Assembly (NCBI GenBank): GCA_023412495.1
Contig: JAEYNP010000090.1
Location: 1-39,833, forward strand
Origin: Pseudomonadota bacterium
GTDB lineage: Bacteria; Desulfobacterota; Desulfobulbia; Desulfobulbales; Desulfocapsaceae
Length of the DNA: 39,833 nucleotides
Reading direction: 5' to 3'
Positions 5,485-39,155 of this stretch are shown here, in pieces. Made by a program: the position numbers and the translations under genes. The notes under the pieces are model-generated. The model made no database searches. It was not told the origin of the DNA and saw only the letters and a program-made list of their open reading frames with translations. Each line of letters begins with the position of its first letter. Position 1 is the stretch's first letter.

Positions 5485-6486
<1,002 letters not shown>

Positions 6487-6496
6487 TGAGGCATGG

Positions 6497-8277: not shown

Positions 8278-8289
8278 GGGTTATTCTTC

Positions 8290-8985
8290 ATGCGCCGTGT
8301 TGCGATTATACCGGCCCGTGGCGGCTCCAAGCGTTTGCCGCGCAAGAACATAGTCAACTTCCACGGCAAGCCGATTATTGCCTACACTATAGAGGCAGGT
8401 CTTTCCAGCGGGCTGTTCGAGCAGGTCATCGTTTCGACGGAGGATGAGGAGATTGCCCAGGTGGCAGCGGTTTACGGAGCGGAAGTCGCGATGCGGCCTC
8501 ATCATCTCGCTACTGACACCGTCGGTACTGTAGATGTTTGTCTAGATCTCCTTGGAAGTCTAGAAACTCGCGGCCTTAAGTATGATGTCCTGTGCTGCTT
8601 ATACGCAACTGCCCCGTTGCGTACGGCAGATGACATCGCAGGAACAGTGCGTCTTCTGGACAGTGGCGAGGTCGATTTCGCTTTTGCCGTGACGGATTAC
8701 CCTGTATCGCCTTACCAGGCTTTAATTGCTGGCAAGAGTGGCTACTTGGACCCGGCCTGGCCTCTTTTAGTTCATCTTAAAAGTCAGGAACTTCCGACGC
8801 CTCTTGTCGGCAACGGAAGCACCTATGCGGCGCGCGTGAACGCCTTCCGCAGAGAGCGCAGCTTCTATGGGCCTCATCTCAAAGGCTACATGATGCCGCG
8901 CATGCGATCCGTGGACATAGACACGGCTGAAGACCTGACAATGGCCCTTTGGCTCGCCAAATGGCCGGGCACTTGCAAGGAATAA
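8290..8985 (+). CDS. pseF: Pseudaminic acid cytidylyltransferase, PseF
   Basis: It activates pseudaminic acid with CTP to give CMP-Pse, the glycosyltransferase donor. The NeuA-type nucleotide-binding signature IPARGGSKRLPRKN is at residues 7-20. The protein is 231 aa, short like PseF rather than the longer sialic-acid NeuA proteins. It is the only CMP-sugar synthetase in the window although two NeuB-family synthases are present, so it may serve both products, or the second synthase may have a different role. It lies 12 bp after the methylase and 3 bp before the next gene. Confidence 0.88.
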   Translation: MRRVAIIPARGGSKRLPRKNIVNFHGKPIIAYTIEAGLSSGLFEQVIVSTEDEEIAQVAAVYGAEVAMRPHHLATDTVGTVDVCLDLLGSLETRGLKYDVLCCLYATAPLRTADDIAGTVRLLDSGEVDFAFAVTDYPVSPYQALIAGKSGYLDPAWPLLVHLKSQELPTPLVGNGSTYAARVNAFRRERSFYGPHLKGYMMPRMRSVDIDTAEDLTMALWLAKWPGTCKE

Positions 8986-8988
8986 CCC

Positions 8989-10065
8989 ATGAGCATGGAA
9001 CTTCGTCTTGGCGTCCGCTCAGTAGGCGGGAATAATCCTCTATATGTCGTTTTTGAGGCAGGCCCTACACATAGTGGTCTAGCCACGGCCATTCAGCTCG
9101 TGGATGTCGCCGCCGCTGCCGGTGCTGATGCAGTAAAATTTCAAATTGTCGATGCGGAACGTCTTATTCCCGACCCGAATGTGCTGTTCACCTATGAGGT
9201 GCTTCTTGATCGGGCCACTGGCACGCGGGAGACGGTGCGCGAATCTCTGCAGGCCATACTGAAGAGGCGGGAACTCACGAGGCAAGAATGGCGTGAACTT
9301 GCGGCCTACGCCCACAGCAAAGGGATCGCCTTTTTTGCCACGGCCACAGATGAAGATGCAATGCAACTCCTGGCTGATATTGGTGCCGATACTATCAAGA
9401 TTGCTTCGGGAGATATCAACTACCACCAGTTCCTACAGCGAGCGACGCAGTATCCGTGGACTGTGCAGATCGATAACGGCTCCTCCACTCTCGGTGAAAT
9501 CGAGGAAGCTGTGCGCGTGCTTGAGGAGTCAGGTTGCCGTAAAATCATCATCAACCATTGTCCCTCGGGCTATCCGGCGCACCTGGAAAGCATACACCTG
9601 AGAGTCATAGGAACTCTGCGGCAGATGTTTCCCTATCCTGTGGCTTTTTCCGACCACACACCTGGCGCAGATATGGATATCGCTGCCCTTGCCCTTGGTG
9701 CGGCAATGATCGAAAAAACCATAACCCTTGACCGTACTATACGCAGCCCCGAGCATATCATGTCTTTGGAGCCTCATGAGGCCGCTGGTTTTGTGCAGAC
9801 GCTAAGAGACATGGAGATAGCCCTTGGCAGCCCTCGGCGAAGTATGGGGGATGAGGAACGCAAGAGACGCCTGGTTGCGCGGCGAAGTGTGATTCTTACC
9901 ACGCAGGCTCGTAAGGGGCAAAAGCTCGAAGATCTCGCCGTATCTTTCCAAAGGCCTGGTGACGGCCTTGCACCCGATCTTTTTGCCAAGCTTGGTGCAT
10001 GCAGAGTGCGCGCCGATCTGCCTGCCGGGCACAAGTTGCGTCTAACCGATCTCGATAGCGAGTGA
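8989..10065 (+). CDS. Divergent NeuB-family synthase
   Basis: This 358-aa protein has the NeuB (sialic acid/nonulosonate synthase) TIM-barrel fold plus a C-terminal SAF/antifreeze-like domain (about residues 290-355, including a PAGHKLRLTDL segment). AGADAVKFQ is present. The first metal-site motif SDHT is retained (His223). The second, normally EKHFT, is EKTIT here, with Thr244 in place of the metal-binding His. The usual N-terminal EIGxNHxG is EAGPTHSG. It should therefore not be called a standard NeuB or PseI, and the true PseI is at 14254. It sits between pseF and the hisH-like gene. It may act on a related nonulosonate or a modified precursor. Confidence 0.75.
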   Translation: MSMELRLGVRSVGGNNPLYVVFEAGPTHSGLATAIQLVDVAAAAGADAVKFQIVDAERLIPDPNVLFTYEVLLDRATGTRETVRESLQAILKRRELTRQEWRELAAYAHSKGIAFFATATDEDAMQLLADIGADTIKIASGDINYHQFLQRATQYPWTVQIDNGSSTLGEIEEAVRVLEESGCRKIIINHCPSGYPAHLESIHLRVIGTLRQMFPYPVAFSDHTPGADMDIAALALGAAMIEKTITLDRTIRSPEHIMSLEPHEAAGFVQTLRDMEIALGSPRRSMGDEERKRRLVARRSVILTTQARKGQKLEDLAVSFQRPGDGLAPDLFAKLGACRVRADLPAGHKLRLTDLDSE

Positions 10066-10070
10066 GTGTT

Positions 10071-10691
10071 ATGATCGCGATTATCGACTATGGAGCGGGC
10101 AATCTTCGCTCGCTGGAAAACACCTTTGCAGCCCTTGGCGTTGCGGCGAAGATCTGTAGCAGCCCAAAGGAAATAGCCACGGCTGCAGGCATTGTCATTC
10201 CAGGTGTGGGAAGCTTTTCTACAGGCATGGAAGGGCTAAGGCGCTCAGGCCTGCTAGATGCTTTGCAAGAGGCTGTGCATGTACAAAGGAAACCCTGCCT
10301 CGGAGTATGCCTTGGAATGCAATTACTAGCCGACAGCGGCCATGAGGATGGCGAGTACCGGGGGTTGGGATGGTTTCCCGGCACGGTGAAGTACATTGAG
10401 CCAGCTAAGCCCGAATTCCGAGTGCCTCACATGGGCTGGAATGAAGTGTATGTGCGCCTGCAGTCACCTCTTTTCGAAGGCATGGGCGAGCGCCCCATCT
10501 TCTACTTTGTGCATAGCTACAGCTTTCGCCCAGAGATCGGGAGTGAAGATTGCGTATCCGCCACTTGCGAACACGGTACTGAGATTGTAGCCGCTATCCA
10601 GAGGGACAACATTTTCGGGGTGCAATTCCATCCCGAGAAGAGCCAGGAAGATGGCATCATACTCCTAAAAAACTTCCTGCGTCTTCTGTAG
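10071..10691 (+). CDS. HisH-like glutamine amidotransferase subunit
   Basis: This class I glutamine amidotransferase (glutaminase subunit of imidazole-glycerol-phosphate synthase type) releases ammonia from glutamine. The catalytic triad is visible: Cys80 in GVCLGMQ, plus His187 and Glu189 in FHPEKS. At 206 aa it has HisH length. I take the ATG at 10071 (MIAIIDYGAGN), not the upstream GTG at 10062, because it gives the canonical HisH N-terminus. Its position with the HisF-like and PseA-like genes in a pse operon argues for ammonia supply to sugar amidination, not histidine synthesis. The same trio flanks pse genes in Campylobacter. Confidence 0.85.
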   Translation: MIAIIDYGAGNLRSLENTFAALGVAAKICSSPKEIATAAGIVIPGVGSFSTGMEGLRRSGLLDALQEAVHVQRKPCLGVCLGMQLLADSGHEDGEYRGLGWFPGTVKYIEPAKPEFRVPHMGWNEVYVRLQSPLFEGMGERPIFYFVHSYSFRPEIGSEDCVSATCEHGTEIVAAIQRDNIFGVQFHPEKSQEDGIILLKNFLRLL

Positions 10692-10699
10692 GGGTGACT

Positions 10700-11458
10700 A
10701 TGCTCAAGCATAGGCTTGTTGTTGTGTTGATACTTAGTGATGGGCAAATCGTCCAGAGCGTTCAGTTCAAGTTGACTAACGTTATCCATGCGCATCCTGA
10801 TATCGCAGTCGACTTCTTTAATCTCTGGGCGGTAGATGAGATAGTTCTGCTGGATGTAAGCCGCAGCACGGATAAGCGCAACCGGTTCTACGATGCGCTC
10901 GACAAGCTCTCTCGCAAGTGCATGGTCCCGCTCGCAGTAGGCGGCTGGGTCACCAGCATCGAAGAAATGAAACGCCTCCTCGGCCTTGGGGCCGACAAGA
11001 TCATCCTGAATACGGCTGCAGTGCGAAATCCGAGCCTTATCACGGAAGGGGCTTTGTGTTTTGGACGTCAATGCATGGTCGTATCCATTGACGCCAGACG
11101 ACAGGCTGACTGCACCTACAGGGTGCATATCGACCGCGGCCGCGAACCAACAGAACACGATCCGGTATTGTGGGCGCAGCAGGCACGCGATGTCGGCGCG
11201 GGAGAATTATTCCTTAATTGCATAGATAACGATGGTTTTCGCAAAGGCTATGATCTGACATTACTTAAGGCTATAACCTCCTCCGTTAACATTCCTGTCG
11301 TCGCCATGGGTGGAGTTTTCACTTGGCAGCATCTTGTGGAAGGCATCACCCTGGGTGGAGCCGATGCGGTGGCAGCGGCCAACATATTTCATTATACTGA
11401 GCATAGTACCAAAAAAGCAAAGAAACACATGCGCAACAGCGGCGTCAATGTGCGCTAG
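10700..11458 (+). CDS. HisF-like cyclase-fold partner with altered active site
   Basis: This 252-aa (beta/alpha)8 protein is homologous to HisF. The phosphate-site motifs (AVGGWV, then VAMGGVF) and the Asp of VVSIDARR (equivalent to canonical Asp130) are present. The usual N-terminal catalytic CLDV is replaced by LILS, so the canonical Asp11 is not visible. That suggests it has lost cyclase chemistry and mainly conducts ammonia from the HisH-like subunit. The ATG at 10700 follows a GGGG ribosome-binding site at good spacing, and a GTG six bases earlier is possible. It ends 9 bp before the PseA-like gene. Confidence 0.82.
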   Translation: MLKHRLVVVLILSDGQIVQSVQFKLTNVIHAHPDIAVDFFNLWAVDEIVLLDVSRSTDKRNRFYDALDKLSRKCMVPLAVGGWVTSIEEMKRLLGLGADKIILNTAAVRNPSLITEGALCFGRQCMVVSIDARRQADCTYRVHIDRGREPTEHDPVLWAQQARDVGAGELFLNCIDNDGFRKGYDLTLLKAITSSVNIPVVAMGGVFTWQHLVEGITLGGADAVAAANIFHYTEHSTKKAKKHMRNSGVNVR

Positions 11459-11467
11459 GGAGCCATC

Positions 11468-12775
11468 ATGGAATATTGCAAGCGTTGCCTGTACCCTCGT
11501 AATGCTAGGCCAACGATTATCTTCGATGAAGAAGGCGTGTGCAGTGGATGCCGTTACCACGAGTCGCGGTTGAGAATCGATTGGGACGAAAGAAGAACTT
11601 GGTTTGAAGCTCTTATCACAGAATATAAAAGTGGTGGGTTAAATAAAAACCCTCATTATGATTGCATCATACCAGTCAGCGGAGGCAAGGATAGCCATTT
11701 TCAGGTTTGGACCATGAAAGAGGTCTATGGCCTGAACCCACTGCTTGTTACTTTTAATCATATATACAACACCCAAGAAAGCATCAGGAACCTTAACAAC
11801 ATTGTTACAACATTTGGTTGCGACCTGATTCGCTTCACCATCAGCCCGGAGACGGCCCGCAAAATTTCACGATACATGCTGCGTCGCTGTGGCGATATCA
11901 CATGGCATTATCATGCCGGAATAATGACCTTCCCATTCCAGGTTGCCGTGCAGCACAAAATCCCGCTTATAGTCTGGGGCGAACATGGCTTCGCTGAGCT
12001 GACTGGCATGGTGACCCTGGATGATCTTGTTGAATTCACCAACTGGAAGCGCCGCGAGCACGACATGCGAGGTATCGAGCCGGATTCCTTGGTGGCTGAC
12101 CCAGAGAGCGGCATCAGCCGCAAGGAGCTTGCGCCTTTCTACTATCCTTCCGATGAGGATATCGAGGCGGTTGGAGTGCGAGGCATATACCTCAGCAACT
12201 ATTTCGATTGGGATGCCCTAAAGCACGGTCGCCATATGGTGCGAGAATTCGGGTTCAAGACCCATCCTGGCCCCCGCGAGCGCACCTTCAATCTCTACGC
12301 CAAGATTGAGGACCACGCCAATGCTGTGCACGATTATCAGAAGTACCTCAAATTCGGGTACGGCAGGGCCACTGATGATGCATCCATGGAAATTCGGCAT
12401 GGACGGATGACCCGCGAGGAGGGCATAGAGATGGTCCGTCGCTATGACCCTCGGCGCCCGCCTTCGCTGGATACCTATCTGGACTTTCTCGGCATCTCGG
12501 ATCGAGAGTTTGTGGAATGCACCTGCGGCAACGGCATGCGCGACCACGAGATATGGGAACAGCTGGTTGATGGCACGTGGCGCGCGCGTGACTCCGTTGT
12601 AAATCATGTCAATGATCCGGGCGTGGATGCCGTGCGCGTGCCGCTCGTAGCTGCGGAGGAGCGCACCTTTGGCAGCAACAACCAGGGGCTATATTGGTCG
12701 GGTGAGCCGGCTGATGGCACGGCTGCTCATCATACGAATAGGAGCGCCGCTGATAATAGCTTCATCGTCCTTTAG
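11468..12775 (+). CDS. pseA: N-acetyl sugar amidotransferase (PseA/WbpG-like)
   Basis: This ATP-dependent enzyme is predicted to turn an N-acetyl group into an acetamidino group using ammonia from the HisH/HisF-like pair. The N-terminus has four cysteines, C4, C7, C25 and C28, in a zinc-ribbon arrangement (CKRCLYPRNARP is typical of the family). The PP-loop ATPase motif SGGKDS is at residues 71-76. Its 435 aa exceeds the roughly 380 of most homologues, and the last 40-50 residues look like an unrelated low-conservation tail. In Campylobacter, PseA with hisH/hisF neighbours is linked to the Pse5Ac7Am derivative, so the same modification is inferred here. Acting on the product of the 8989 synthase is an alternative. 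Confidence 0.82.
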   Translation: MEYCKRCLYPRNARPTIIFDEEGVCSGCRYHESRLRIDWDERRTWFEALITEYKSGGLNKNPHYDCIIPVSGGKDSHFQVWTMKEVYGLNPLLVTFNHIYNTQESIRNLNNIVTTFGCDLIRFTISPETARKISRYMLRRCGDITWHYHAGIMTFPFQVAVQHKIPLIVWGEHGFAELTGMVTLDDLVEFTNWKRREHDMRGIEPDSLVADPESGISRKELAPFYYPSDEDIEAVGVRGIYLSNYFDWDALKHGRHMVREFGFKTHPGPRERTFNLYAKIEDHANAVHDYQKYLKFGYGRATDDASMEIRHGRMTREEGIEMVRRYDPRRPPSLDTYLDFLGISDREFVECTCGNGMRDHEIWEQLVDGTWRARDSVVNHVNDPGVDAVRVPLVAAEERTFGSNNQGLYWSGEPADGTAAHHTNRSAADNSFIVL

Positions 12776-12786
12776 ACGAGATACCC

Positions 12787-14241
12787 ATGGCAGGTACATT
12801 AATCATCCGCTCTGACGCCGCCCCACACATTGGGACGGGGCACGTGATGCGCTGTATTGCGTTGGCCTGTGCAGCACGTGAGCAGGGCCTAGATGTGATG
12901 CTATCTGGGCGCATGGGCGTGGACTGGTTGAAAGAGCGACTAAGGGCCACGGGCTTGCCTTTTCGTGAACTGCCGGGGAACGTACCACAGCGAGAGCTTC
13001 CTGCCGACCTGCTGGCTCAACTTAGCGGCTCTGCAAAGGATTGGGTTGTCCTCGATGGTTACCACTTCGGTCCGGACTTCCATAAGGCCATAAGTGAGGC
13101 GGGCTATAAGCTCCTGGTAGTCGACGATTATTGCCATTTACCGGAATATAACTGTGACATCCTCTTTAACCAGAATATAGGCGCCGAAAAATTACAATAC
13201 CAGGGCAATCTTGGGCAAAAGCTGCTAGGACCGCGCTATGCTATGTTGCGGCCGGAGTTCTTGGCATCCCGCAAGAGGGCCACGCAACGGCAGTTTCCAC
13301 CAAAGGCTCGTCATATTCTCCTCTCATTAGGGGGCGGAGATTTTTCAAATGAGTTGGAAGGACTTGCTCCTCTTTTGGTCCAAAAGGAGCTTGCAGGGAC
13401 GACACTCAGGGTCATTGCCGGAGCTATGCCGGAGGCACAAGTCAGGAGCATTTTGGCGGACTGCCCGGCATCCTTAGAAGTGCTGACTCATGTGGACGAC
13501 ATGCCCTCCCTCATGCACTGGGCGGATTTGTGCGTATCCGCTGGCGGCTCTACTTGCTGGGAACTCTGTTGCCTTGGCGTGCCGTTCCTAACTATTGAGA
13601 TTGCCAATAACCAACGTGAAATTGTGAAAGGGTTGGCAACGCTTGGAGTGGCCCCTGTGCTGGAGTTAGAAACTCTACGCTATATGATTACGGACGCTGA
13701 TGCCCGCCGTGTCGCTTCGGCAGCGGGCTTAGCGATCGTTGATGGCAATGGCGCGGCGCGGGTTATAGCAATGATGTGTAAGTCGCCTTGCCTTTTGCGC
13801 GAAGCTGAACCGCGCGACTGTTCTTTTGTTTGGCAAGTTGCGGGAGCTTCCGAGGTGCGGGCTGTATCTGGCTCCACGCTGCCTATTCCTTGGGAAACAC
13901 ATAAAACTTGGTATTCTGCCCGCCTAATGGATGCAGGTACGCACTTTTATATAATTGAGAATCCAACCGCTACGCCTTTAGGCTACATGCGTTTTCAGAA
14001 AGATGGAGATGCAGTCATAGTATCTATCGCCCTTACCGCCAAGGCCAGGAGTCGGGGTGTTGGAACTCACGCTCTGCGAGAAGGCTGCCGCCTCGTACGA
14101 GAGTATTGGCCTAATAACACAGTGCAGGCTTATATTGCGCCGGAGAATGAAGCTTCACGTAAGGCCTTTTCGCGCGCGGGTTTTGCTCCCGGCAGCGAAG
14201 TAAATCTTAACGGGCGCACTATGGTGTGCTTCACATATTGA
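12787..14241 (+). CDS. pseG: PseG-PseH fusion: UDP-sugar hydrolase plus N-acetyltransferase
   Basis: Two consecutive pathway enzymes are fused in one 484-aa protein. Residues 1 to about 335 are PseG, a GT-B-fold hydrolase that removes UDP from UDP-2,4-diacetamido-2,4,6-trideoxy-beta-L-altropyranose. The catalytic His19 is in GTGHVMRC and the nucleotide-site segment SAGGSTCWELCCLG is near residue 250. Residues from about 338 to the end form a GNAT acetyltransferase (PseH), with the acetyl-CoA loop ARSRGVGTHAL near 422-432. PseH acts just before PseG, so the fusion joins successive steps 3 and 4. The gene starts 11 bp after the PseA-like gene and is followed by pseI. Confidence 0.9.
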   Translation: MAGTLIIRSDAAPHIGTGHVMRCIALACAAREQGLDVMLSGRMGVDWLKERLRATGLPFRELPGNVPQRELPADLLAQLSGSAKDWVVLDGYHFGPDFHKAISEAGYKLLVVDDYCHLPEYNCDILFNQNIGAEKLQYQGNLGQKLLGPRYAMLRPEFLASRKRATQRQFPPKARHILLSLGGGDFSNELEGLAPLLVQKELAGTTLRVIAGAMPEAQVRSILADCPASLEVLTHVDDMPSLMHWADLCVSAGGSTCWELCCLGVPFLTIEIANNQREIVKGLATLGVAPVLELETLRYMITDADARRVASAAGLAIVDGNGAARVIAMMCKSPCLLREAEPRDCSFVWQVAGASEVRAVSGSTLPIPWETHKTWYSARLMDAGTHFYIIENPTATPLGYMRFQKDGDAVIVSIALTAKARSRGVGTHALREGCRLVREYWPNNTVQAYIAPENEASRKAFSRAGFAPGSEVNLNGRTMVCFTY

Positions 14242-14253
14242 TATGGGAAATCC

Positions 14254-15315
14254 ATGATAGACGGTTTTTTCCTTTCCGCTGTTCACGGCCCCCGCGAAAT
14301 TGGCCCGGCTTGCTCTTGCTATGTAATCGCGGAAATGAGTGCCAACCACAACCACGATATCGAACGTGCCGAAGCAATTGTTCGCGCTGCCGCTGAAGCT
14401 GGGGCCGACGCAATCAAGCTCCAAACCTATACGGCAGACACGCTCACCATCCCTTGCGACAACGACTACTTTCGTATCAAGGGCACGCTCTGGAATGGCC
14501 GTACCCTGCACGAACTATATCAAGAAGCATACACTCCCTGGGAATGGCAGCCGCGCTTGAAAGCACTGGCCAATGATCTTGGCATGGACTGCTTTTCCAC
14601 GCCTTTTGACGCGACGGCAGTCGATTTTCTCGAAACGATGGGTGTGCCCTGTCATAAGGTCGCCAGCTTTGAGAATGTGGACATTCCACTGCTCAAGAAA
14701 ATCGCCTCCACAGGCAAGCCCGTCATCATGTCCACTGGCATGGCAACGCTGGCAGAGATTGACGAAGCCGTAAAAACACTGCGCGAGTACGGCGCAGGAG
14801 GAATCGTGCTCCTCAAGTGCACCTCTGCATATCCAGCCCCAGCAGAGGAAGCTAACCTGCGTACAATCCCACATATGGCCGAGGCCTTCGGTTGCCCGGC
14901 AGGCCTATCAGACCATACACTGGGTTCAGCCGTAGCAGTTGCTTCCGTCTGCCTGGGAGCTTGCGTACTGGAAAAGCATTTTACCTTGTCGCGAGCCGAC
15001 GGGGGGCCGGACGGTGCTTTCAGCATGGAGCCTGAGGAATTCAAGTCCATGGTGCGCGATATCAGGGTTGTGGAGCAGGCACTAGGACGAGTTTGCTACG
15101 ATATTACTGATAAGCAGAGTAATAGCAGTGTCTTTCGACGTTCGCTCTTCGTTGTTCGCGATGTTAAAGCAGGCCAAATGCTTACTCAGGAGGATATACG
15201 GTCCATCAGGCCTGGTTATGGGTTGCATACCCGCTATTATCCAGAAGTACTTAGGCGGCGTTTTATAAAAGATGTTGCTAAAGGAACGCCTCTTTCATGG
15301 GATTTGCTGTGCTGA
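14254..15315 (+). CDS. pseI: Pseudaminic acid synthase, PseI
   Basis: It condenses 6-deoxy-AltdiNAc with phosphoenolpyruvate to form pseudaminic acid. The NeuB-fold motifs are intact: EMSANHNHD at the N-terminus, AGADAIKLQ, the metal ligands His221 in SDHT and His242 in EKHFT, and a C-terminal SAF domain from about residue 285. At 353 aa it is of family size. It is the last gene of the tightly packed pse operon, and a 55-bp gap and an abrupt drop in GC content follow it. Compare the divergent paralogue at 8989, which lacks the second histidine. Confidence 0.93.
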   Translation: MIDGFFLSAVHGPREIGPACSCYVIAEMSANHNHDIERAEAIVRAAAEAGADAIKLQTYTADTLTIPCDNDYFRIKGTLWNGRTLHELYQEAYTPWEWQPRLKALANDLGMDCFSTPFDATAVDFLETMGVPCHKVASFENVDIPLLKKIASTGKPVIMSTGMATLAEIDEAVKTLREYGAGGIVLLKCTSAYPAPAEEANLRTIPHMAEAFGCPAGLSDHTLGSAVAVASVCLGACVLEKHFTLSRADGGPDGAFSMEPEEFKSMVRDIRVVEQALGRVCYDITDKQSNSSVFRRSLFVVRDVKAGQMLTQEDIRSIRPGYGLHTRYYPEVLRRRFIKDVAKGTPLSWDLLC

Positions 15316-19842: not shown

Positions 19843-21654
19843 ATGACACTTCGCCAAATCGCACAACGCGTCTATGCGCTAGGCTCCCCTGCGCAGCGCC
19901 GTCATTTCTGGCTGCTTTTCGCCCTCAATGCCTTCATGGGTGCTTTTGAGATGGGCGTTGCCGGCGGCATTTCGCTGCTTGGCATTGCCATGGCATCTCC
20001 GGAGTCTCTTGCCGGCCTTCCGTACATGGCAACCATTCTGGCACTCCTGCCTTTTCCTGACTCCGTGCCCCAAGCGCTAAGGGCCTTGATATTGGTTCTG
20101 GGCCTTCTCTGCTGCGCAATCGCGCTCAAAAACGCGCTTTATGCCTATCTCACATGGCGACAAACCATCTTCTCACAGCACCTTTCCTGGGATTTCGGAA
20201 GAAATCTGTTCCAGCGATACATCTGCGCGCCTTACGCATGGTACTCCCAGCAGAATTCGTCAGATCTCTACCTCTATCTCAGCTGGAAGGTTTATGTTGG
20301 TGGCTTTGCATCAAGCATACAGATGCTGCTTACACAGCTCGTCATCGTGCTGGCGCTTGTTGGTGGATCTTTAGTAGTTAATGCCCCACTGACGCTGCTG
20401 CTTTTCTGTTGCACTGGTGTTATCGCCATCGTCATACACCGCTACTCACGCGAAAAGGTGCACCGTGTGGGCTCTGAAATATGCACCTACGAGGCGTATA
20501 ATACCCGCACCTGCATGCAGAGCATGCAGGGAATGCGCGAGATCGCCATCTATGAAAAGCGACAGGCCTTCCTCAACGACTATGGCAGGCATATTCCCGC
20601 ACATGTTGTCGCTACTGGCAAACAGATCCTGTATCCTTCCATGCCTCAGTGGGTCATGGAAACCGTAGGCATGCTCCTGCTGTTGGTCGTGCTTTGCCTA
20701 GCAACCTATTGGGAATTCTCTACTGTCAGGGCCACAGGCATTCTCGTCTTTCTCGCCGCCATATCATGGCGCCTGCTGCCGGCCTCTAACAAGATGCTCT
20801 CCTGCGTCATTAACCTGCGCTCGTACATGCCGGTGCTTGGCAGGCTTTTCAAGGAAACAGCCAATATCGGCCAAGCAACACCTCTTTTTGCTCGCAAGGA
20901 AATAGCCTTCGAGTCCCAGATCACCCTGCAGAAAATTCGCTTTACCTACCCGCAGGGCACCTCACCCGCGCTGGATGATGTCACCATCACTATTCCCAAA
21001 GGCAAGATGGTTGGACTTGTCGGCCTTTCCGGATCCGGCAAGAGCACCATTTCAAGCATTATCACCGGACTGCAGCAAGCCGACGAAGGTTCCATTCTTG
21101 TGGATGGCAAACCGTGGGATGCCTACACTGAGAGGCTCCGTATCGGTTATGTGCCGCAGGCACTTTACATTCTTGATACCACGCTGGCGGAGAATGTCGC
21201 CTTCAGTCGTTGGGGAGAGCCGGTAGACCCGGTGCTACTTGAGCGTTGCTGCGCAATGGCAGCCATGAATTTCATCCGCGACCTTCCTGACGGCATGGAA
21301 ACAGTGCTCGGCGAACGCGGTGTCCGCCTCTCCGGCGGGCAGATACAACGCGTGGGAATTGCCCGCGCCCTCTATGCCGAACCCGATATCCTCATCTTCG
21401 ACGAGGCGACCTCTGCTCTTGACGGTGCAACAGAGAGTGCCATCCAGAGCACTATCAACACGCTCCGTGACAATATTACGCTGGTCCTTATCGCGCATCG
21501 ATTGAGCACCGTTGCCGACTGCGATATCATCTATTGGATTGACAATGGACGCGTACGCACTTCTGGCACACCAGCCGAGGTATTGCCGCAATACGAAACA
21601 ATGATGCGACATATGGGCTTTACCGCCGAGCCCTCGCCGCAGCAAACTTGCTGA
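19843..21654 (+). CDS. Full-size ABC exporter, MsbA/PglK-type flippase
   Basis: This 603-aa half-transporter has transmembrane and ATPase domains in one chain and probably works as a homodimer to flip lipid-linked glycan across the inner membrane. Hydrophobic helices fill residues 15-310 (examples start at LLFALNAFMGAF, LILVLGLLCCAIAL and TVGMLLLLVVL). The nucleotide-binding domain has Walker A GLSGSGKST at about 394-402, signature LSGGQIQRVGIARAL from about 497 and Walker B ILIFDEATSALD near 517-528. As the only exporter in the window it could replace Wzx, as PglK does in Campylobacter N-glycosylation. A general lipid or peptide exporter cannot be excluded. Confidence 0.82.
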   Translation: MTLRQIAQRVYALGSPAQRRHFWLLFALNAFMGAFEMGVAGGISLLGIAMASPESLAGLPYMATILALLPFPDSVPQALRALILVLGLLCCAIALKNALYAYLTWRQTIFSQHLSWDFGRNLFQRYICAPYAWYSQQNSSDLYLYLSWKVYVGGFASSIQMLLTQLVIVLALVGGSLVVNAPLTLLLFCCTGVIAIVIHRYSREKVHRVGSEICTYEAYNTRTCMQSMQGMREIAIYEKRQAFLNDYGRHIPAHVVATGKQILYPSMPQWVMETVGMLLLLVVLCLATYWEFSTVRATGILVFLAAISWRLLPASNKMLSCVINLRSYMPVLGRLFKETANIGQATPLFARKEIAFESQITLQKIRFTYPQGTSPALDDVTITIPKGKMVGLVGLSGSGKSTISSIITGLQQADEGSILVDGKPWDAYTERLRIGYVPQALYILDTTLAENVAFSRWGEPVDPVLLERCCAMAAMNFIRDLPDGMETVLGERGVRLSGGQIQRVGIARALYAEPDILIFDEATSALDGATESAIQSTINTLRDNITLVLIAHRLSTVADCDIIYWIDNGRVRTSGTPAEVLPQYETMMRHMGFTAEPSPQQTC

Positions 21655-25565: not shown

Positions 25566-26285
25566 ATGCGCGTTGCCGTTCTCTACATCTGTACAGGTAA
25601 GTACACCGTCTTCTGGGATGGCTTTTTCCGCTCGAGCGAATTGTTTTTCATGCGCAGTCATGAAAAACATTACTTCGTATTTACCGATGGTCATATCGAC
25701 CACACAAATGATAGCAGGGTTCATAGAATACAGCAAAAAAAGCTGGGCTGGCCCTATGACACCCTGCACCGATTTCACATGTTTTCGTGCATTGAAAGCG
25801 AATTGCAGTCATTTGACTTCATTCTCTATATCAATGCGAACAGCTATTTTGTTACAGAATGCGGTGATGACGTCCTTCCTAAGCATAAGGATCATCTTCT
25901 TCTGACCCTGCATCCGGGATACTGGCATAGCAAATATCGGCTGCTGCGATGGAAGTTGCCTTACGAGCGCGACATCCGCTCTACAGCCTACATTCCCTAC
26001 TGGAAAGGTGGCCGCTATGTATGTGGGGGGCTCAATGGTGGCTGGCGAGATTCCTATCTCAGGCTCATCCGCGAACTTAAGGAAGCAATCGACGTCGATG
26101 GGATTAACGGGATAGTGGCGCGGTGGCATGATGAATCCCACCTCAACCGCTATGCACTTGAACATCCAGCGAAGCTTCTTCACCCCGGGTTCATGTATCC
26201 CAGTTGCTACGACCTACCATTCCCCAAGCGTATAGGCTTGTATCACAAAGAAGATTTCGGGGGACATAAATTTCTGCGCGATTAG
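25566..26285 (+). CDS. GT6 glycosyltransferase (ABO/alpha-1,3-GalT family), stand-alone
   Basis: This is a 239-aa bacterial GT6 enzyme. The family is retaining and transfers Gal or GalNAc alpha-1,3 to a Gal acceptor, usually one carrying alpha-1,2-fucose. Visible motifs are the N-terminal VLYICTGKYTVFW, Asn90-Ala91-Asn92 at the site where animal enzymes have the metal-binding DxD, CGGLNGG at 153-159 and WHDESHLNRY with candidate nucleophile Glu190. The NxN form is known from bacterial GT6 proteins and goes with metal-independent catalysis. There is no membrane anchor, unlike the mammalian Golgi enzymes. It is paralogous to the GT6 half of the fusion at 30457. Gly155, at the position equivalent to ABO residue 268, is as in GTA, but donor choice remains open. 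Confidence 0.85.
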   Translation: MRVAVLYICTGKYTVFWDGFFRSSELFFMRSHEKHYFVFTDGHIDHTNDSRVHRIQQKKLGWPYDTLHRFHMFSCIESELQSFDFILYINANSYFVTECGDDVLPKHKDHLLLTLHPGYWHSKYRLLRWKLPYERDIRSTAYIPYWKGGRYVCGGLNGGWRDSYLRLIRELKEAIDVDGINGIVARWHDESHLNRYALEHPAKLLHPGFMYPSCYDLPFPKRIGLYHKEDFGGHKFLRD

Positions 26286-27204: not shown

Positions 27205-27219
27205 TTACTGCGAGGACAT

Positions 27220-27900: not shown

Positions 27901-28814
27901 ACCTTACCAGTGATGCAAACGCCATAGCCATCCAATTTTCTGGAGGGCTCGGCAACCAAATGTTCCAGTACGCAGCTGGTCGGGCTCTCTCTTTGCGTCT
28001 TGCCTTACCCTTGCACGCAGACCTATCGTGGTTTTTACAGCGCTTCAGCAAAGCAACGACTCCCCGAGAATACGCACTGGGCGTCTTTACGCTTCCGCTC
28101 AAAGTTTCCACAACCAGCGCTAGTGCCTCCACCCCTCTGCGCTCTTTATTGACTGCACTGCGGAAGCGACTCCATCGATGGCCGCAACTCCCGCTTCATC
28201 TCTTGTCCCATCATATACTTGAGCCGCACTTTCACTACTGGTCGGGATGGGAATCGCTTCAACGCCCCTGCATTTTGAGCGGTTATTGGCAATCATGGCG
28301 CTATTTTCATCAATACGCGGACATAATCCGGCAAGACTTTACTTTCCCGGGTCTAACGCACGCTGCCCTTCCAATCCGAGAAGCAATTGAAAGCGCAACG
28401 AACAGCATATCTTTGCATATACGTCGTGGAGACTACGTGAACAATGCAACGACCGCGTTCCTCCATGGCATAGAGATCATAAATTACTACAAAAAGTCGC
28501 TGCTTCATTTCCGTTCCATAGATGCGCGTGCGACCGTATTCGTCTTTAGCGATGATCCCGACTGGGCAAAGACTAATTTTTGCTCCAAGGGATTACCCTA
28601 TACTGTTGTTAGCAAGGACACAGGGCCTCTTGATGACATGCAGCTTATGAGTCTCTGCACACACCACATCATTGCGAATTCATCCTTTTCGTGGTGGGCT
28701 GCATGGTTAAGCAGTCAGCAGGGTCAAACTCTTGCCCCTGCAAGGTGGTTTACAGACCATGCCATCAACACCCAGGACCTTTGCCCCCCAGCATGGCTAC
28801 GTATTTCGGCATGA
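27894..28814 (+). CDS. GT11 alpha-1,2-fucosyltransferase-like
   Basis: This 306-aa GT11 enzyme transfers L-fucose from GDP-Fuc, normally alpha-1,2 to Gal. Family motifs are GGLGNQMFQYAAGRAL starting at residue 17, the GDP-Fuc-binding HIRRGDY at 175-181, and the C-terminal IIANSSFSWWAAWL. It is a typical length for bacterial GT11. It overlaps the FkbM gene and ends in an ATGA overlap with the next GT2 gene. The GDP-fucose genes at 1871-5468 supply its donor. It is only distantly similar to the GT11 half of the fusion at 30457, so the two probably fucosylate different acceptors or are independent acquisitions. Confidence 0.88.
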   Translation: MVNLTSDANAIAIQFSGGLGNQMFQYAAGRALSLRLALPLHADLSWFLQRFSKATTPREYALGVFTLPLKVSTTSASASTPLRSLLTALRKRLHRWPQLPLHLLSHHILEPHFHYWSGWESLQRPCILSGYWQSWRYFHQYADIIRQDFTFPGLTHAALPIREAIESATNSISLHIRRGDYVNNATTAFLHGIEIINYYKKSLLHFRSIDARATVFVFSDDPDWAKTNFCSKGLPYTVVSKDTGPLDDMQLMSLCTHHIIANSSFSWWAAWLSSQQGQTLAPARWFTDHAINTQDLCPPAWLRISA

Positions 28815-29827
28815 CACCCGCTATTACCGTTCTTCTTCCTGCTTATAATGCCCAGGCCTATGTGGCCGAAGCTGTCTCTTCCATCCTTGGGCAAAGCCTC
28901 CCCGACTTCGAACTGCTCATCATCGATGACGGCTCCACTGATGATACAGGGCTAATATTGCGACAGCTGGCTCGCAAGGACAACCGCATCCGTCTGGTGC
29001 AGCGTGAGAACAGGGGGCTCATCGCTACTCTCAACGAAGGGTTGCACCTCGCAGCAGCCCCGTTAGTGGCTCGCATGGATGCTGATGATCGCGCGTTGCC
29101 TAACCGCCTTACCATACAGAAACGATACATGGACGAGTATCCGAAGCTCGCCGTGTGCGGCAGTGCCGTACGCGTACTGGAAACCGGCCAGGTCTGGTAC
29201 GCCCCGCAAGGTGAGGCCCTTGCGCCACGATCCCTGTTCGCCAACCCTATGTTTCATCCTACGGTAATGGCACGCAGAGATATTCTGCTTGCTGTGGGCG
29301 GCTACCGCACCGACATGCCTTGTGCAGAAGACTACGAGCTTTGGACCCGCTTGCTTAAAGGTGGGCACAGCCTGGACAATCTCACCGACGTCCTGCTGGA
29401 GTACCGGGCACATCCACAGAATTTTCGCCCTGCATACAAGGCGCGCATGCGTCAGACCAGCGAACTGATATACCGCGCCGGATTGGCACGACTGGGCATC
29501 ACCCCATCAGCGGCACAACTGGAGACGCATTTTTTCTGCGCGGCCCCAGCACCAGCCACCAGCTTCGAAATCGCGCGTGCACAGTCCTGGCTGGCCCTCA
29601 TCGAATGCAGGAACAACATACACCATGTGTTCGACAACGCGGCTCTCCGGTTCGTTACCGCATCCATTCAGGCAGAACTTACCTGTTTCCCCTTCCTGAG
29701 ACATCCGCTATGGTGGGTTAAGCGAACAGCCTACCGTACCTTGAAATCCATCTTTTTTCGCCATGCTCACTATATCCCGGCCAACTTTCTAGGAATTGTA
29801 GAGCGCATGCGAAGTAGCCTGCACTAA
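28811..29827 (+). CDS. GT2 family glycosyltransferase
   Basis: This 338-aa inverting GT-A transferase has the N-terminal ITVLLPAYNAQAYVAEA, IIDDGSTDDTG near residues 37-47, MDADDRALPNR (metal-binding DxDD near 90) and a C-terminal EDYELWTRLLKGG acceptor-site motif. It fits GT2 proteins that add beta-linked hexoses. I chose the ATG at 28811 because it overlaps the preceding stop as ATGA. An in-frame ATG at 28793 would add six residues. The frame stays open further upstream, but it would overlap the GT11 gene by over 120 bp there. It is the last intact gene before the transposase wreck. Confidence 0.82.
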   Translation: MTPAITVLLPAYNAQAYVAEAVSSILGQSLPDFELLIIDDGSTDDTGLILRQLARKDNRIRLVQRENRGLIATLNEGLHLAAAPLVARMDADDRALPNRLTIQKRYMDEYPKLAVCGSAVRVLETGQVWYAPQGEALAPRSLFANPMFHPTVMARRDILLAVGGYRTDMPCAEDYELWTRLLKGGHSLDNLTDVLLEYRAHPQNFRPAYKARMRQTSELIYRAGLARLGITPSAAQLETHFFCAAPAPATSFEIARAQSWLALIECRNNIHHVFDNAALRFVTASIQAELTCFPFLRHPLWWVKRTAYRTLKSIFFRHAHYIPANFLGIVERMRSSLH

Positions 29828-29891
29828 ATGACTGTTGAACTATTCTACATTCTGTTCGAAGGTCGCGCCCCAGCAGGAAGCGAGGTGCACC

Positions 29892-30392
29892 ATGGCGCTT
29901 GGACGGCAGAGCGAGGCAAGGAATATGTGGGTCAGCTTCGACGACATCCCTCGGTCCCGCGGACACGCATTCCACGACCACCTGCGGCAGGTGTTCGCGC
30001 CGGGGTTCGACCGTGTTTCGCTGAGAAGCTCTGTACGCCATACCACACGACCACCAGGGGCCGTCCATCCATCCTACCAGGGCGCTCTTTCGCGTGCACC
30101 TGCTTGGCTACTTCGAGGGCATCGACAGCGAGCGAGGAGGGGAGTGGCGCTGCGACGACTCCTTGTCGCTGCGGGAGTTTCTGCTCCTCGATACCAGGGA
30201 ATCTGTCCCGGACCACACCTTGCTCCCAAGGACCCGCTTACGGCTGCCCCTTGATGTCAACGAGCAGGTGTTTGCCTTTGTGCTCAGTGTATTAACCAAG
30301 GCCGGGCTTGTGCTAGGCCGCCGGATTGGCGCGGACACCCGACCATGGAAGCCAATGCGGCCATGAAGAGCATCGTCCGCCGGGACACAAAG
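29892..30392 (+). pseudogene. Decayed IS1182-family transposase, N-terminal part
   Basis: Consecutive pieces in different frames rebuild the start of an IS1182-type transposase: MALGRQSEARNMWVSFDDIP from 29892, then AEKLCTPYHTTTRGRPSILP in a second frame from about 30018, then HLLGYFEGIDSERG and DSLSLREFLLLDTRE in a third from about 30097, and finally MEANAAMKSIVRRDTK just before 30392. At least three frameshifts separate them. Roughly the first 160 residues remain and the catalytic C-terminal portion is gone. I saw no terminal inverted repeats. It sits exactly between the GT2 gene and the GT6-GT11 fusion, a footprint of insertion and module assembly. Confidence 0.78.
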
Positions 30393-30456
30393 GTTATGCC
30401 GCACGCAGTGCTCGGCAGAAGCAAATAGCGGGTTTATCAACGGGCAGTTAACACCT

Positions 30457-32130
30457 ATGCGCATTGGCATCCTCTATATCTGTACCGGGAAATATACTGT
30501 TTTCTGGAATCACTTCTTTACTTCCTGCGAACAGCATTTTCTGCGCGAGCATGAAAAGCACTATTACATCTTTACGGACGGAGAAATTGCTCATCTGGAC
30601 TGCAATCGCGTGCATCGTATCGAACAGCAGCACCTTGGGTGGCCTGACTCAACGCTCAAACGATTCCACATGTTCGAGCGAATAGCTGACACCCTGCGGC
30701 AACTCTCCGATTTTATTGTCTTCTTCAATGCTAATATGGTGTTTCTGCGCGATGTGGGAAAAGAGTTTCTGCCCACCCGCGAACAAGCACTTGTCTTCCA
30801 CCGCCACCCCGGTTTATTCCGCCGCCCGGCTTGGCTGCTCCCCTATGAACGCCGCCCGGAGTCCACTGCCTACATTCCCTATGGATCAGGAAGTATCTAT
30901 GTATGCGGAGGTGTTAATGGGGGCTACACACAACCGTACCTTGATTTCGTTGCAACGTTACGCCGCAATATTGATATCGACGTAGAACGGGGCATTATTG
31001 CACGCTGGCATGATGAGTCGCATATCAACCGCTTTGTGATAGGCAGGCGCTACAAGATAGGCCATCCAGGCTACGTCTACCCGGACAGACTCAACCTGCC
31101 ATTTCCGAGAATCATACGCGTCATCGACAAAGCCTCCGTCGGAGGTCACACGTTTCTTAGGGGGCAAACGCCTGAACCTGCACCTGAAGAGCAAAGCAAG
31201 ACTGTCGCCAAGAAGCTGCGCAGTCAGTTGAAGCGGCCATGTATGCCACGAGCAGCACAGGATGAGCCAATTGTCCTTGCGCGCATGATGGGGGGCCTGG
31301 GTAACCAGATGTTCATCTACGCAGCCGCTCGTGTACTGGCCGAACGGCAGGGCGCGCAACTGCATCTGGATACAGGCAGGCTTTCCGGCGACAGCATACG
31401 CCAGTATGACCTCCCAGCTTTCAGCATCGATGCCCCTCTGTGGCACATCCCCTGCGGGTGTGACCGCATAGTGCAGGCGTGGTTTGCATTGCGCCATGTG
31501 GCGGCGGGTTGCGGTATGCCCAAACCCACCATGCAGGTACTGCGAAGCAGCTTTCATCTAGATCAGCGTTTCTTCAGCATCAGGCACAGCGCCTACCTCA
31601 TCGGCTACTGGCAGTCTCCGCACTACTGGCGCGGCCATGAAGACTGTGTAAGGAGCTCTTTTGACCTTGCCCGGTTCGAGCGTCCACACCTACGCGAGGC
31701 ACTGGCGGCAGTATCGCAACCGAACACGATCTCGGTGCACCTACGTCGCGGCGACTTTCGCGCCCCTAAAAACAGTGACAAGCACCTGCTCATTGATGGC
31801 AGCTATTACGAACGCGCGCGCAAACTACTGCTAGAGATGACCCCCCAGAGCCACTTTTATATCTTTTCGGACGAACCGGAAGAAGCGCAACGGCTCTTTG
31901 CCCACTGGGAGAACACCAGTTTTCAGCCCCGCCGCAGTCAGGAGGAAGACCTGCTGCTCATGAGCCGTTGCTCCGCATCCATTATTGCTAATTCCTCGTT
32001 CAGTTGGTGGGGTGCATGGCTCGGCCGGCCCAAGCAGCATGTGATTGCTCCGCGCATGTGGTTTACGCGAGATGTTCTTATGCACACCTACACGCTCGAC
32101 CTTTTTCCTGAAAAATGGATTCTTCTCTAA
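30457..32130 (+). CDS. GT6-GT11 fusion: candidate blood-group A/B determinant synthase
   Basis: Two glycosyltransferases are joined in one 557-aa cytoplasmic protein. Residues 1 to about 240 are a GT6 (ABO-family) domain with VFFNANMVF containing the NxN motif at 91-93, CGGVNGG at 150-156 and WHDESHINRF at 184-193 with candidate nucleophile Glu187. A charged, Pro-rich linker (about 241-270) leads to a GT11 alpha-1,2-fucosyltransferase-like domain: MGGLGNQMFIYAAARVL from 278, HLRRGDF at 428-434 and IIANSSFSWWGAWL near the C-terminus. GT11 is known to make Fuc(alpha1-2)Gal and GT6 to add alpha-1,3 GalNAc or Gal to that product. The fusion could thus carry out both final steps of A- or B-antigen synthesis. 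The frame is uninterrupted and both domains look intact. Confidence 0.88.
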   Translation: MRIGILYICTGKYTVFWNHFFTSCEQHFLREHEKHYYIFTDGEIAHLDCNRVHRIEQQHLGWPDSTLKRFHMFERIADTLRQLSDFIVFFNANMVFLRDVGKEFLPTREQALVFHRHPGLFRRPAWLLPYERRPESTAYIPYGSGSIYVCGGVNGGYTQPYLDFVATLRRNIDIDVERGIIARWHDESHINRFVIGRRYKIGHPGYVYPDRLNLPFPRIIRVIDKASVGGHTFLRGQTPEPAPEEQSKTVAKKLRSQLKRPCMPRAAQDEPIVLARMMGGLGNQMFIYAAARVLAERQGAQLHLDTGRLSGDSIRQYDLPAFSIDAPLWHIPCGCDRIVQAWFALRHVAAGCGMPKPTMQVLRSSFHLDQRFFSIRHSAYLIGYWQSPHYWRGHEDCVRSSFDLARFERPHLREALAAVSQPNTISVHLRRGDFRAPKNSDKHLLIDGSYYERARKLLLEMTPQSHFYIFSDEPEEAQRLFAHWENTSFQPRRSQEEDLLLMSRCSASIIANSSFSWWGAWLGRPKQHVIAPRMWFTRDVLMHTYTLDLFPEKWILL

Positions 32131-32978
32131 TGGGCGTAGAACTTCATATATGTCTGCTAGTCACCACACGTGGCCGCACCGATGCTTTGGTGAGGTTACT
32201 CAACTCTCTGGTGCTGCAAAACCACAGGCATTTCCATGTCATTCTCGGCGACCAAAATCCGACAGGTTTTCTCGCCCCCCTTCTAGCTAGCTACAGGGAC
32301 ACGTTGCGCATCGAACGCCACCCTATTCCGGAGTCGAGTCTCTCACGTGCCCGCAACCTGCTCATACCCCATGCACACGGCGACATTATCGCTCTAACCG
32401 ATGATGACTGCCACTACGCTCCGGACTGTCTCTCAAGGGTGGCTACAGCTTTTCTGGCTTCGCCAGAAATCGGCATACTCTGTGCAACCCCGTGCGATAC
32501 GCTCCAGCGCGGCACAGTACAACAGGCGCATAATACCACGCGTCCCATCAGCCGATACGGCATTTTCCGTTCATGCCCTTCCTGGGTATTGTTCTTCAGT
32601 GCCGCAGCGTTCAGGTCTGCCGGCACATTCGACGAGAACCTCGGCGTGGGAGCGCCCACTCCCAGCCAGAGCGGAGAAGAGACGGACTTTGCCCTGCGGG
32701 TTATGGCTAGGGGCGCACGAGCCTTTCGTCTAGCGACGGCGCACGTGTTTCATGACAGTGTGGCCATCACGCCAGCCATGATAGAACGAACCCGGCTTTA
32801 TGGTATTGGACGTATGACAGTACTTATTAAACATGGCTTTCCGCTATGGTTTATTCTTGCCAATCTGTTGTTCCCGCTGGCACAATTCACTATCTGTGTC
32901 CTGCGCAGAACCTCTCAACACGCCTTTCTTCACTGGCAGACATTCAGAGGGCGGCTGCAAGGTTTACTTCATCCCTGA
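32115..32978 (+). CDS. GT2 family glycosyltransferase
   Basis: This 287-aa GT-A protein has LLVTTRGRTDALVRLLNSL at the N-terminus, HVILGDQNP, SLSRARNLLIPHAHGDIIAL, and the metal site TDDDCHYAPD near residues 95-104, followed by GEETDFALRV as acceptor motif. The hydrophobic segment beginning WFILANLLFPLAQF near the end suggests membrane association. The start overlaps the fusion gene by 16 bp, and an ATG at 32130, overlapping the stop by one base, is equally possible. Overlap indicates co-transcription and probably a role adding a neighbouring sugar in the same glycan. Confidence 0.78.
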   Translation: MDSSLMGVELHICLLVTTRGRTDALVRLLNSLVLQNHRHFHVILGDQNPTGFLAPLLASYRDTLRIERHPIPESSLSRARNLLIPHAHGDIIALTDDDCHYAPDCLSRVATAFLASPEIGILCATPCDTLQRGTVQQAHNTTRPISRYGIFRSCPSWVLFFSAAAFRSAGTFDENLGVGAPTPSQSGEETDFALRVMARGARAFRLATAHVFHDSVAITPAMIERTRLYGIGRMTVLIKHGFPLWFILANLLFPLAQFTICVLRRTSQHAFLHWQTFRGRLQGLLHP

Positions 32979-33001
32979 GTCATCTTCCTGAAGGATTAAA
33001 G

Positions 33002-33715: not shown

Positions 33716-33751
33716 GTAGCTAATCTTCAAATTAGTTTTATTAAAATTTTA

Positions 33752-37847: not shown

Positions 37848-39155
37848 ATGAAAGCTCAGCTCCTCAGCAAACTTCAAGACAAATCCGCTTGCATCGGCAT
37901 CGTCGGACTCGGCTATGTAGGCCTGCCCCTGGCAAAGCTATACTTGCAAAATGGCTTCTGGGTATATGGCTTTGATATCGATAAGAGGAAGATCACCGCC
38001 CTCATGGAGGGTCGCTCATACATAGAGCATGTGGATGCCAGCTTGTTCCAGGCGGCCAGCGCTCAGGGGACCTTCGTGCCCACTACAGACTACTCTCGTG
38101 TCTCTGAGGTAGACGCCCTCATCTTTTGCGTGCCCACGCCGCTCAATGAGCATCGGGAACCGGACCTCTCTTTCGTCATCAACTCGCTCCTGTCCGTGCT
38201 TCCCTACCTGAAGGCCGGTCAGGTTTTGTCGCTGGAGAGCACGACCTATCCGGGCACCACTAATGAAGAGCTGCGCCCTAGGATCGAAGAGCGCGGGTTT
38301 ACCATAGGCCAAGACTTTTTCCTCGTATTCTCGCCAGAGCGAGAAGATCCGAACAACCCCAAGTACAGCACGAATACAATCCCAAAAGTCTGTGGCGGCC
38401 AGACCAAAGCCTGCCTTGAGGTTGGTCTGGCGCTCTACCAGGGCGTTATTGAGACTGTCGTGCCCGTCAGCTCGACCCAGGCCGCTGAGATGACCAAGAT
38501 CCTGGAAAACACATTCCGGGCCGTGAATATCGCGCTGGTTAACGAACTGAAGATCGTGGCCGAGCGCATGGGCTTGGATATTTTCGAAGTCATACGCGCC
38601 GCAGCCACCAAGCCGTTCGGCTTCATGCCTTTTTATCCTGGCCCAGGGCTTGGCGGGCACTGCATCCCTATCGACCCGTTTTACCTGACCTGGAAGGCCC
38701 GCGAGTATGGCGTGGCCACCAGATTCATTGAGCTGGCAGGCGAAGTGAATACGGCCATGCCTGACTACGTGGTGGGCAAGATCATGGCTGCCCTCAACGA
38801 GCACCGAAAGGCCGTCAATGGCTCGCGCATCCTCGTGCTTGGGGCGGCCTACAAGAAGAATGTAGACGATACCCGCGAATCGCCAGGCCTGGCGCTCATC
38901 GCCAAGCTGCAGGAGTTTGGGGCCCAGGTGGATTACTCGGACCCGCATGTGCCCGTCATGCCCAAGGTGCGCAAGTACAGCTTCGACATGCGTAGCGTAC
39001 CGCTCACCCCCGAAACGCTTGCGGAATACGATCTTGTGCTTGTGGCCACGGATCACGACAGGTTTGATTGGAAGCTTATCGAGGAGAATGCACGGGTGAT
39101 CGTCGACACCAGGGGAAGATATACCCAGGCGGCAGGCAAGATATACAGGGCATAA
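37848..39155 (+). CDS. UDP-N-acetylglucosamine 6-dehydrogenase, WbpA/TviB-type
   Basis: This NAD-dependent dehydrogenase oxidises C6 of a UDP-N-acetylhexosamine to the uronic acid, giving UDP-GlcNAcA (or the GalNAc analogue), a precursor of O-antigen and capsule sugars. The Rossmann motif [13 protein letters not shown] is at residues 18-30, and the catalytic Cys272 lies in [12 protein letters not shown]. The closing domain contains [17 protein letters not shown], the family's C-terminal signature. At 435 aa it is full length, in the WbpA group rather than UDP-glucose dehydrogenase. A decayed copy of its first 90 bp is at 33752. No downstream WbpB/D/E-type enzymes appear, so further conversion is not supported here. 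Confidence 0.88.

Follow-up and report, generated by a model that had tools for sequence, protein, structure and literature searches.

A recurrent GT6-GT11 fusion protein as a candidate bifunctional enzyme for blood-group-A-like surface glycans

We analysed a 39,833-nt stretch of DNA (contig JAEYNP010000090.1; hereafter the window, with the coordinates of all features counted from its first letter) that carries a gene for a single protein, P0001, in which a glycosyltransferase family 6 (GT6) domain is followed by a family 11 (GT11) domain. We give a probability of about 0.57 to the reading that P0001 is a bifunctional surface-glycan enzyme, predicted from its sequence to attach fucose (Fuc) in α-1,2 linkage and then N-acetylgalactosamine (GalNAc) or, less likely, galactose (Gal) in α-1,3 linkage to the same β-galactose. 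Its activity, order of action, acceptor, A-type donor and benefit from tethering are what we infer: for the chemistry of either half we rely on its family and on the closest relatives that have been characterised, and for the coupling of the two steps on the recurrence of the fusion and the gene neighbourhood.

The fused frame and its two domains

An earlier reading of the window, made from the sequence only, had described one uninterrupted frame joining the two domains, and the frame is indeed unbroken from ATG to stop. It is open already from 30367, and the reverse complement of 30457-32130 contains stops. The positions given for NAN (91-93), WHDESH (184-189) and HLRRGDF (428-434) were also found in P0001 as described.

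The GT6 assignment, at first read from motifs, held in a profile search, in which Pfam Glyco_transf_6 (PF03414) matched residues 3-227 (E 8.4e-33, 113.9 bits, cut-off 25). The NCBIfam family 6 model NF041524 matched as well (267.7 bits, cut-off 250). The closest PDB sequence match over residues 1-236 was BoGT6a of Bacteroides ovatus (4ayj, E 1.2e-63), a metal-independent GalNAc transferase of the blood-group-A type (4ayj, 4ayl, 4cjb, 4cjc and 4cj8; PMC3961637). BoGT6a was studied as residues 1-246, that is, as GT6 alone, whereas P0001 has a GT11 domain after GT6. The GT6 half has the GT-A fold of solved GT6 enzymes. As in metal-independent bacterial GT6 enzymes, NAN replaces DXD, and the C-terminal part carries K225 and R235; we take the meaning of NXN and of the C-terminal Lys/Arg (diphosphate) from the work on BoGT6a, and the donor-binding and catalytic positions named there are kept in P0001 (PMC3961637). 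Across P0001 and 22 fused relatives described below, R69 and K225 are invariant (23/23 each), NxN is always present (NAN in 20, NSN in 2, NGN in 1), WHDE is kept in 20 (WHDD, WLDE and NHDE occurring once each), and Arg stands at 235 in 20.

The GT11 assignment was likewise upheld, since Pfam Glyco_transf_11 (PF01531) matched residues 370-540 (E 4.7e-16, 59.3 bits, cut-off 23.9); the NCBIfam scan of P0001 gave no model matching this half at E 0.001. We place the full GT11 half at about 272-557 because GGLGNQMF sits at 279-286. The motifs GGLGNQMF, HLRRGDF, FSD and NSSFSWW are present in P0001, and the same motifs occur in most of 60 unfused GT11 rows. HxRRGD, which we take to be the GDP-fucose motif (GDP, guanosine diphosphate), is kept in 22 of the 23 fused proteins. 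The half has the fold of the α-1,2/1,6/O-fucosyltransferase superfamily. GT11 motifs I-IV are described in PMC8439653. A sequence search found no solved GT11 structure, and the only PDB matches in one search with this half, to HIV gp41 (best E 0.33), were rejected as chance. A VIA run with the whole P0001 model listed GT6 structures only; the GT11 half was therefore modelled separately.

In the AlphaFold2 model, P0001 consists of two folded halves on a flexible tether, with a predicted template-modelling score (pTM) of 0.54. P0001 holds two complete catalytic domains in one chain, as does the bifunctional PgtA of Dictyostelium. The sequence-only reading had also suggested that a fusion would allow channelling from the H to the A or B antigen. 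We found nothing that supports this suggestion; the halves are joined by a linker predicted to be disordered.

Recurrence of the fusion and its evolution

To look for other fused homologues, as the sequence-only reading had proposed, we searched about 5.8 billion clustered proteins (clusters at 90% identity). At least 22 of the 64 matches listed (P0002-P0020, P0022, P0024 and P0032) carry both Pfam domains; this is a lower bound, as both of our protein searches scored only about 8000 candidates sharing most words. These relatives are 32-93% identical to P0001 over 96-100% of the query, and the domain order is GT6 then GT11 in all 23 fused proteins. The fusion itself therefore stood, and what changed was the picture of otherwise separate enzymes, the fusion being recurrent and not unique. 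P0001 may belong to the P0002 cluster (93% identity). An alignment of the fused sequences (22 rows, mean column identity 48%) was used in a profile search, and none of the 105 proteins listed was a further one with both Pfam domains.

Some matches have other architectures. P0031 (339 aa) holds GT6 and breaks off roughly 90 residues into GT11. P0022 is a 974-aa triple fusion on a 2.06-Mb contig, with GT2 in front of GT6 and GT11, and judging by its domains perhaps combines three successive glycosyltransferase steps in one chain. The GT6 partners in P0029, P0034, P0037, P0041, P0042, P0057 and P0109 are FkbM or other methyltransferases, GT2, hexapeptide acyltransferase-like repeats and GT25. In the scanned members of the P0021 group, a C-terminal part of about 230 aa had no significant Pfam match.

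To place the halves, we built trees of 98 GT6 and 83 GT11 domains, a chosen subset analysed by a quick tree method only. The rows were domains of at least 120 bits from 65 proteins (the 64 listed and P0001), together with 30 bacterial and 13 viral loci, the window, and 12 loci with GT11 alone. Partial domains were left out (P0031, P0052 and P0063 from the GT6 set, P0031 from the GT11 set), as were proteins first found by the profile search. The 23 fused sequences were scattered over several places in both trees. To explain the fused label, the GT6 tree needs a minimum of 8 changes (5 forced by starred branches) and the GT11 tree a minimum of 9 (4 forced). These counts do not separate fusion from splitting, and support values from quick trees are less trustworthy when rows are long. 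One fused clade was rejected by the approximately unbiased (AU) test (p 7.4e-8 for GT6, 9.4e-7 for GT11). In the GT11 tree, the P0001-P0009 group is placed away from two other fused groups, P0010/P0016/P0017 and P0011-P0015/P0018; in the GT6 tree, the GT6 halves of these three groups fall together in one set of 44 rows. Distances among the GT6 halves and among the GT11 halves of the 22 aligned fused proteins are in agreement (Mantel r 0.87, a value reached in 0 of 2000 permutations), which is what joint transmission of the halves inside each group would give. As the fused rows do not form one clade in either tree, fusion or splitting probably happened several times.

We also examined GT6 and GT11 where they are unfused. 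A GT6-only model over 399 genomes of one Bacteroidota family (that of a Prevotella record, L018) found GT6 in 8; GT11 was found in 119 (110 above the family cut-off), including all 8 with GT6 (hypergeometric p 5e-5). Without the centre genome, which had been reached through a GT11 pattern, the association was 7/7 (p 1.8e-4). In each of these seven genomes a GT11 is found no more than 1.3 kb from GT6; six of the pairs share a strand, and the seventh locus has a weak GT11 match (84 bits) on the opposite strand. Two further GT6 genes, from a phylum-wide Bacteroidota sample (GT6 in 3/395 genomes, one being the centre genome), likewise have GT11 within 1.3 kb; this sample is less clean, with a two-domain query and at most 3 candidates scored per genome. 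Among 80 viral GT6 loci found with GT6-only patterns, some of them near-copies of one another, 57 have a GT11 somewhere in the sequence fetched (at most 6 kb to either side) and 31 have one within 1.5 kb, GT11 being first in 27 of these; none is fused. The neighbourhood is weaker in viruses than in the sampled Bacteroidota. Each fetch from the genome and viral collections confirmed more than 550 stretches, of which the best 80 were kept. The 160 loci fetched with the fused query contained no fused frame; they are biased to GT11, since the search patterns fell in that half, and were left out of the neighbourhood counts.

Among reference phages, 103 records match, 61 of them over at least 80% of the query at a single site; 14 of the 15 matches listed are annotated, and in each of these the match spans two or more named features. 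Cyanophage and other viral contigs (L121, L125, L130; records H1-H15) often have GT11 and GT6 adjoining, and in side-by-side pairs from IMG/VR loci GT11 usually comes first. In Selenomonas ruminantium GACV-9 (L001, 9935-11635), GT6 and GT11 lie in one frame split by a single stop, with a GTG right after it. A Desulfovibrio record (L007) has separate GT6 and GT11 genes. Three candidates were rejected: an apparent 793-aa fused frame (L003), in which many stops remain under translation table 25, and query-spanning matches in Prevotella (L195) and Phocaeicola (L196), each consisting of two overlapping frames.

Proposed function and alternatives

In the route that we propose, the C-terminal GT11 half would transfer L-fucose from GDP-fucose in α-1,2 linkage to a terminal β-galactose, giving an H-type product, and the N-terminal metal-independent GT6 half would then add GalNAc (less likely Gal) in α-1,3 linkage to the same galactose. 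This would build a blood-group-A-like tip in the cytoplasm, on a lipid-linked unit of an O-antigen or similar polysaccharide. The flexible linker would keep both active sites on one molecule at a 1:1 ratio and raise the local concentration of the H intermediate. The sequential chemistry suggested earlier is plausible, in that the window encodes ManC, Gmd and Fcl for GDP-fucose and also GalE, and GT11 lies near the unfused GT6 of Bacteroidota.

Related systems are known. In the blood-group-B O-antigen of Escherichia coli O86, WbwK (GT11) and WbnI (GT6) carry out a two-step chemistry of this kind on a surface polysaccharide (PMC4202792); there, two separately named enzymes give a B-type end product, whereas P0001 has both families in one chain. 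The GT11 half of P0001 is like the bacterial GT11 enzymes Helicobacter pylori FutC and E. coli WbwK, WbsJ and WbiQ in having a GT11 domain with the family motifs, a likeness by family and not by sequence comparison, and its H-antigen-type reaction is predicted by analogy with them (PMC4202792). Unlike these enzymes, it is fused behind GT6. Among the bifunctional glycosyltransferases compared, PgtA is the closest in principle, being one polypeptide with two glycosyltransferase activities, including α-1,2-fucosylation, that builds part of a blood-group-like chain (PMC8439653 and PMC3655985). PgtA makes a Fuc-Gal (H-type) disaccharide, whereas P0001 is predicted to go from H to A, and the other partner activity and the host also differ. 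We did not find GT6 and GT11 joined in one chain in the literature searched (titles and beginnings of abstracts), a search of incomplete coverage from which we do not claim that the architecture is unpublished.

More tentatively, and with the odds somewhat against it, we speculate that an H-to-A synthase was assembled several times from metal-independent GT6 and different GT11 lineages, and serves in serotype-variable surface loci as an exchangeable one-gene cassette that switches on an A-like tip, with a real kinetic gain from transfer of the intermediate between tethered sites. If the H-to-A activity is true, it would offer a compact, single-gene means of producing A-antigen oligosaccharides. 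Since the same pair is found fused, abutting and separate, the recurrent fusions would also form a natural series for measuring the value of tethering two sequential glycosyltransferases.

The alternative that survives best, which we regard as unlikely, is that both domains are active on different acceptors or on different sites of a larger repeat unit, so that the fusion is a by-product of operon packing and there is no H-to-A sequence. Several observations count for it, and the first two are our main grounds for caution about the H-to-A proposal. The window holds a GT6/GT11 pair twice, the second GT6 and second GT11 being unfused and 1.6 kb apart. GT6 is also fused to unrelated partners, namely FkbM methyltransferase (P0029), GT2 (P0041, P0042) and an acyltransferase-like repeat (P0037), with a Methyltransf_23 match below cut-off in P0034. 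Glycosyltransferase genes moreover abut or overlap in such loci, as in the GT6-stop-GT11 arrangement of S. ruminantium. However, GT11 recurs as the partner in separate tree positions and is a close neighbour in 9/9 unfused Bacteroidota loci examined, and BoGT6a acts on 2'-fucosyl-lactose, which is of the GT11 product type (PMC3961637).

It is rather improbable that P0001 works in the proposed order but adds Gal instead of GalNAc, giving a B-type product, or accepts either donor. At the position of ABO 266-268, P0001 has CGG, and the 23 fused proteins have CGG (15), AGG (5), SGC, ASG and QGG (1 each). The window GalE could supply uridine diphosphate (UDP)-Gal, and CGG is absent from the tripeptides listed and tested in the available part of PMC6351642. 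In that part, Gly at 268 goes with the A-type (LGG, AGG) and Ala with the B-type (MGA), and the closest characterised relative, BoGT6a, which has AGG (YYAGGLSGG) where P0001 has CGG, is a GalNAc transferase. The earlier claim of an A or B determinant is thereby narrowed, as a prediction, to A-type being likelier than B-type.

We consider it very improbable that P0001 performs a single reaction, with one half inactive and acting to tether or to bind the acceptor. Such loci allow gene decay, and immediately upstream of the fused gene there is what remains of a transposase; yet the catalytic residues examined are kept in both halves of P0001, and P0002 matches P0001 at 92% identity in one half and 93% in the other, so that neither is changing faster. 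A sequencing or assembly error that erased a stop codon has next to no probability. Nothing spoke for it beyond the lack of fused frames among the 160 fetched loci, and it is refuted by the 22 fused proteins found elsewhere in the database, one of them 93% identical to P0001 and another, P0008, a cluster of 38 member sequences on 7 contigs.

The surrounding locus

We read the fused gene as part of a putative serotype-variable surface polysaccharide locus, because the flanks are conserved and the interior differs between the window and genome G022, from the family of Candidatus Desulfovibrio intestinavium (L002). The two share Gmd (96% identity over 69 residues at a contig edge), Fcl (92%) and nucleotide-sugar dehydrogenase (93%). 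Of the 235 genomes with a match in that family sample, the 234 besides G022 have listed dehydrogenase matches of no more than 41% identity. Between fcl and the dehydrogenase gene (5468-37848), G022 is almost wholly different, about 20 kb against about 32 kb here, and shares only distant glycosyltransferase relatives (30-45% identity) with the window. Among these relatives is a lone GT11 with 45% identity to the GT11 half of P0001; G022 has no GT6 match. Among 247 genomes of that family, 22 match the fused profile, none is fused, and GT6 occurs only in the centre genome (G001), which was also the only one found with the GT6 model over 297 genomes of the phylum. An 85-bp stretch at 33762-33844 is 82% identical to the start of the G022 dehydrogenase gene and is perhaps a recombination scar at the right edge of the exchange locus.

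Table 1. Features of the window, with domains of P0001 listed under the fused gene
Feature	Coordinates	Strand	Evidence
Fused GT6-GT11 glycosyltransferase P0001, 557 aa	30457..32130	+	Open reading frame (ORF) list; Pfam, PDB, database and NCBIfam searches
GT6 domain, residues 1-236; R69, NAN 91-93, CGG 150-152, WHDE 184-187, K225, R235	30457..31164	+
Linker, residues 237-271 (about 35), mostly predicted disordered	31165..31269	+	AlphaFold2, 238-262 with predicted local distance difference test (pLDDT) <50
GT11 domain, residues 272-557; GGLGNQMF 279-286, HLRRGDF 428-434, NSSFSWW 512-518	31270..32127	+
GalE-type UDP-hexose 4-epimerase	822..1808	+	TIGR01179, 449.5 bits, cut-off 262.3
ManC (GDP-mannose supply)	1871..3289	+	TIGR01479, 722.9 bits, cut-off 372.95
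Gmd, GDP-mannose 4,6-dehydratase	3297..4451	+	TIGR01472, 585.5 bits, cut-off 415
Fcl, GDP-L-fucose synthase	4461..5468	+	NF047922, 526.9 bits, cut-off 500
Pseudaminic-acid-type genes PseB, PseC, PseF, NeuB-like, HisH/WbuZ/WbuX-like, PseG, PseI	5500..15315	+
ATP-binding cassette (ABC) transporter, MsbA/PglK type, possible glycan flippase	19843..21654	+	Below cut-offs of the 25 NCBIfam models shown
Separate GT6 gene, 239 aa, with CGG/NAN/WHDE	25566..26285	+	Pfam E 1.6e-29
Separate GT11 gene, 306 aa	27894..28814	+	Pfam E 1.7e-32
Upstream GT2 glycosyltransferase, true start uncertain; listed ORF overlaps the preceding GT11 gene	28691..29827	+
Insertion-sequence transposase remnant, just upstream of fused gene	30015..30388	.	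blastn 70.5%, annotated transposase, Solidesulfovibrio magneticus plasmid
GT2 glycosyltransferase; listed start overlaps fused-gene end by 16 bases	32115..32978	+
Nucleotide-sugar dehydrogenase, conserved right flank of variable locus	37848..39155	+	TIGR03026; 93% identical in G022

Phosphomannomutase had no match among the 34 window genes scanned, so that this step of GDP-fucose supply would be encoded elsewhere. The separate GT11 and the fused half fall in different parts of the GT11 tree. A scan of 25000-38000 for promoters and terminators gave 15 promoter-like signals against 10.6 expected and 13 terminator-like signals against 13.4, nothing usable. The ORF listed at 29828-30295, which overlaps the transposase remnant, is probably no gene.

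The window also holds GT2-type transferase genes (at 17340, 28691 and 32115), group-1-type genes (23618 and 35499) and methyltransferase genes. In the pseudaminic-acid-type region, a HisH/WbuZ/WbuX-like amidation set and two NeuB-family synthases are present; PseB, PseC, PseF, PseG, PseI, HisH and WbuX models score above cut-off, WbuZ and the first NeuB below. The C-terminal part of PseG has a weak acetyltransferase match. Genes of low G+C content (0.36-0.44) lie at 15371-19274, 27220-27900 and 34217-35383, the other genes measured being at 0.48-0.65, and those at 15371-17236 and 34217-35383 have no Pfam matches.
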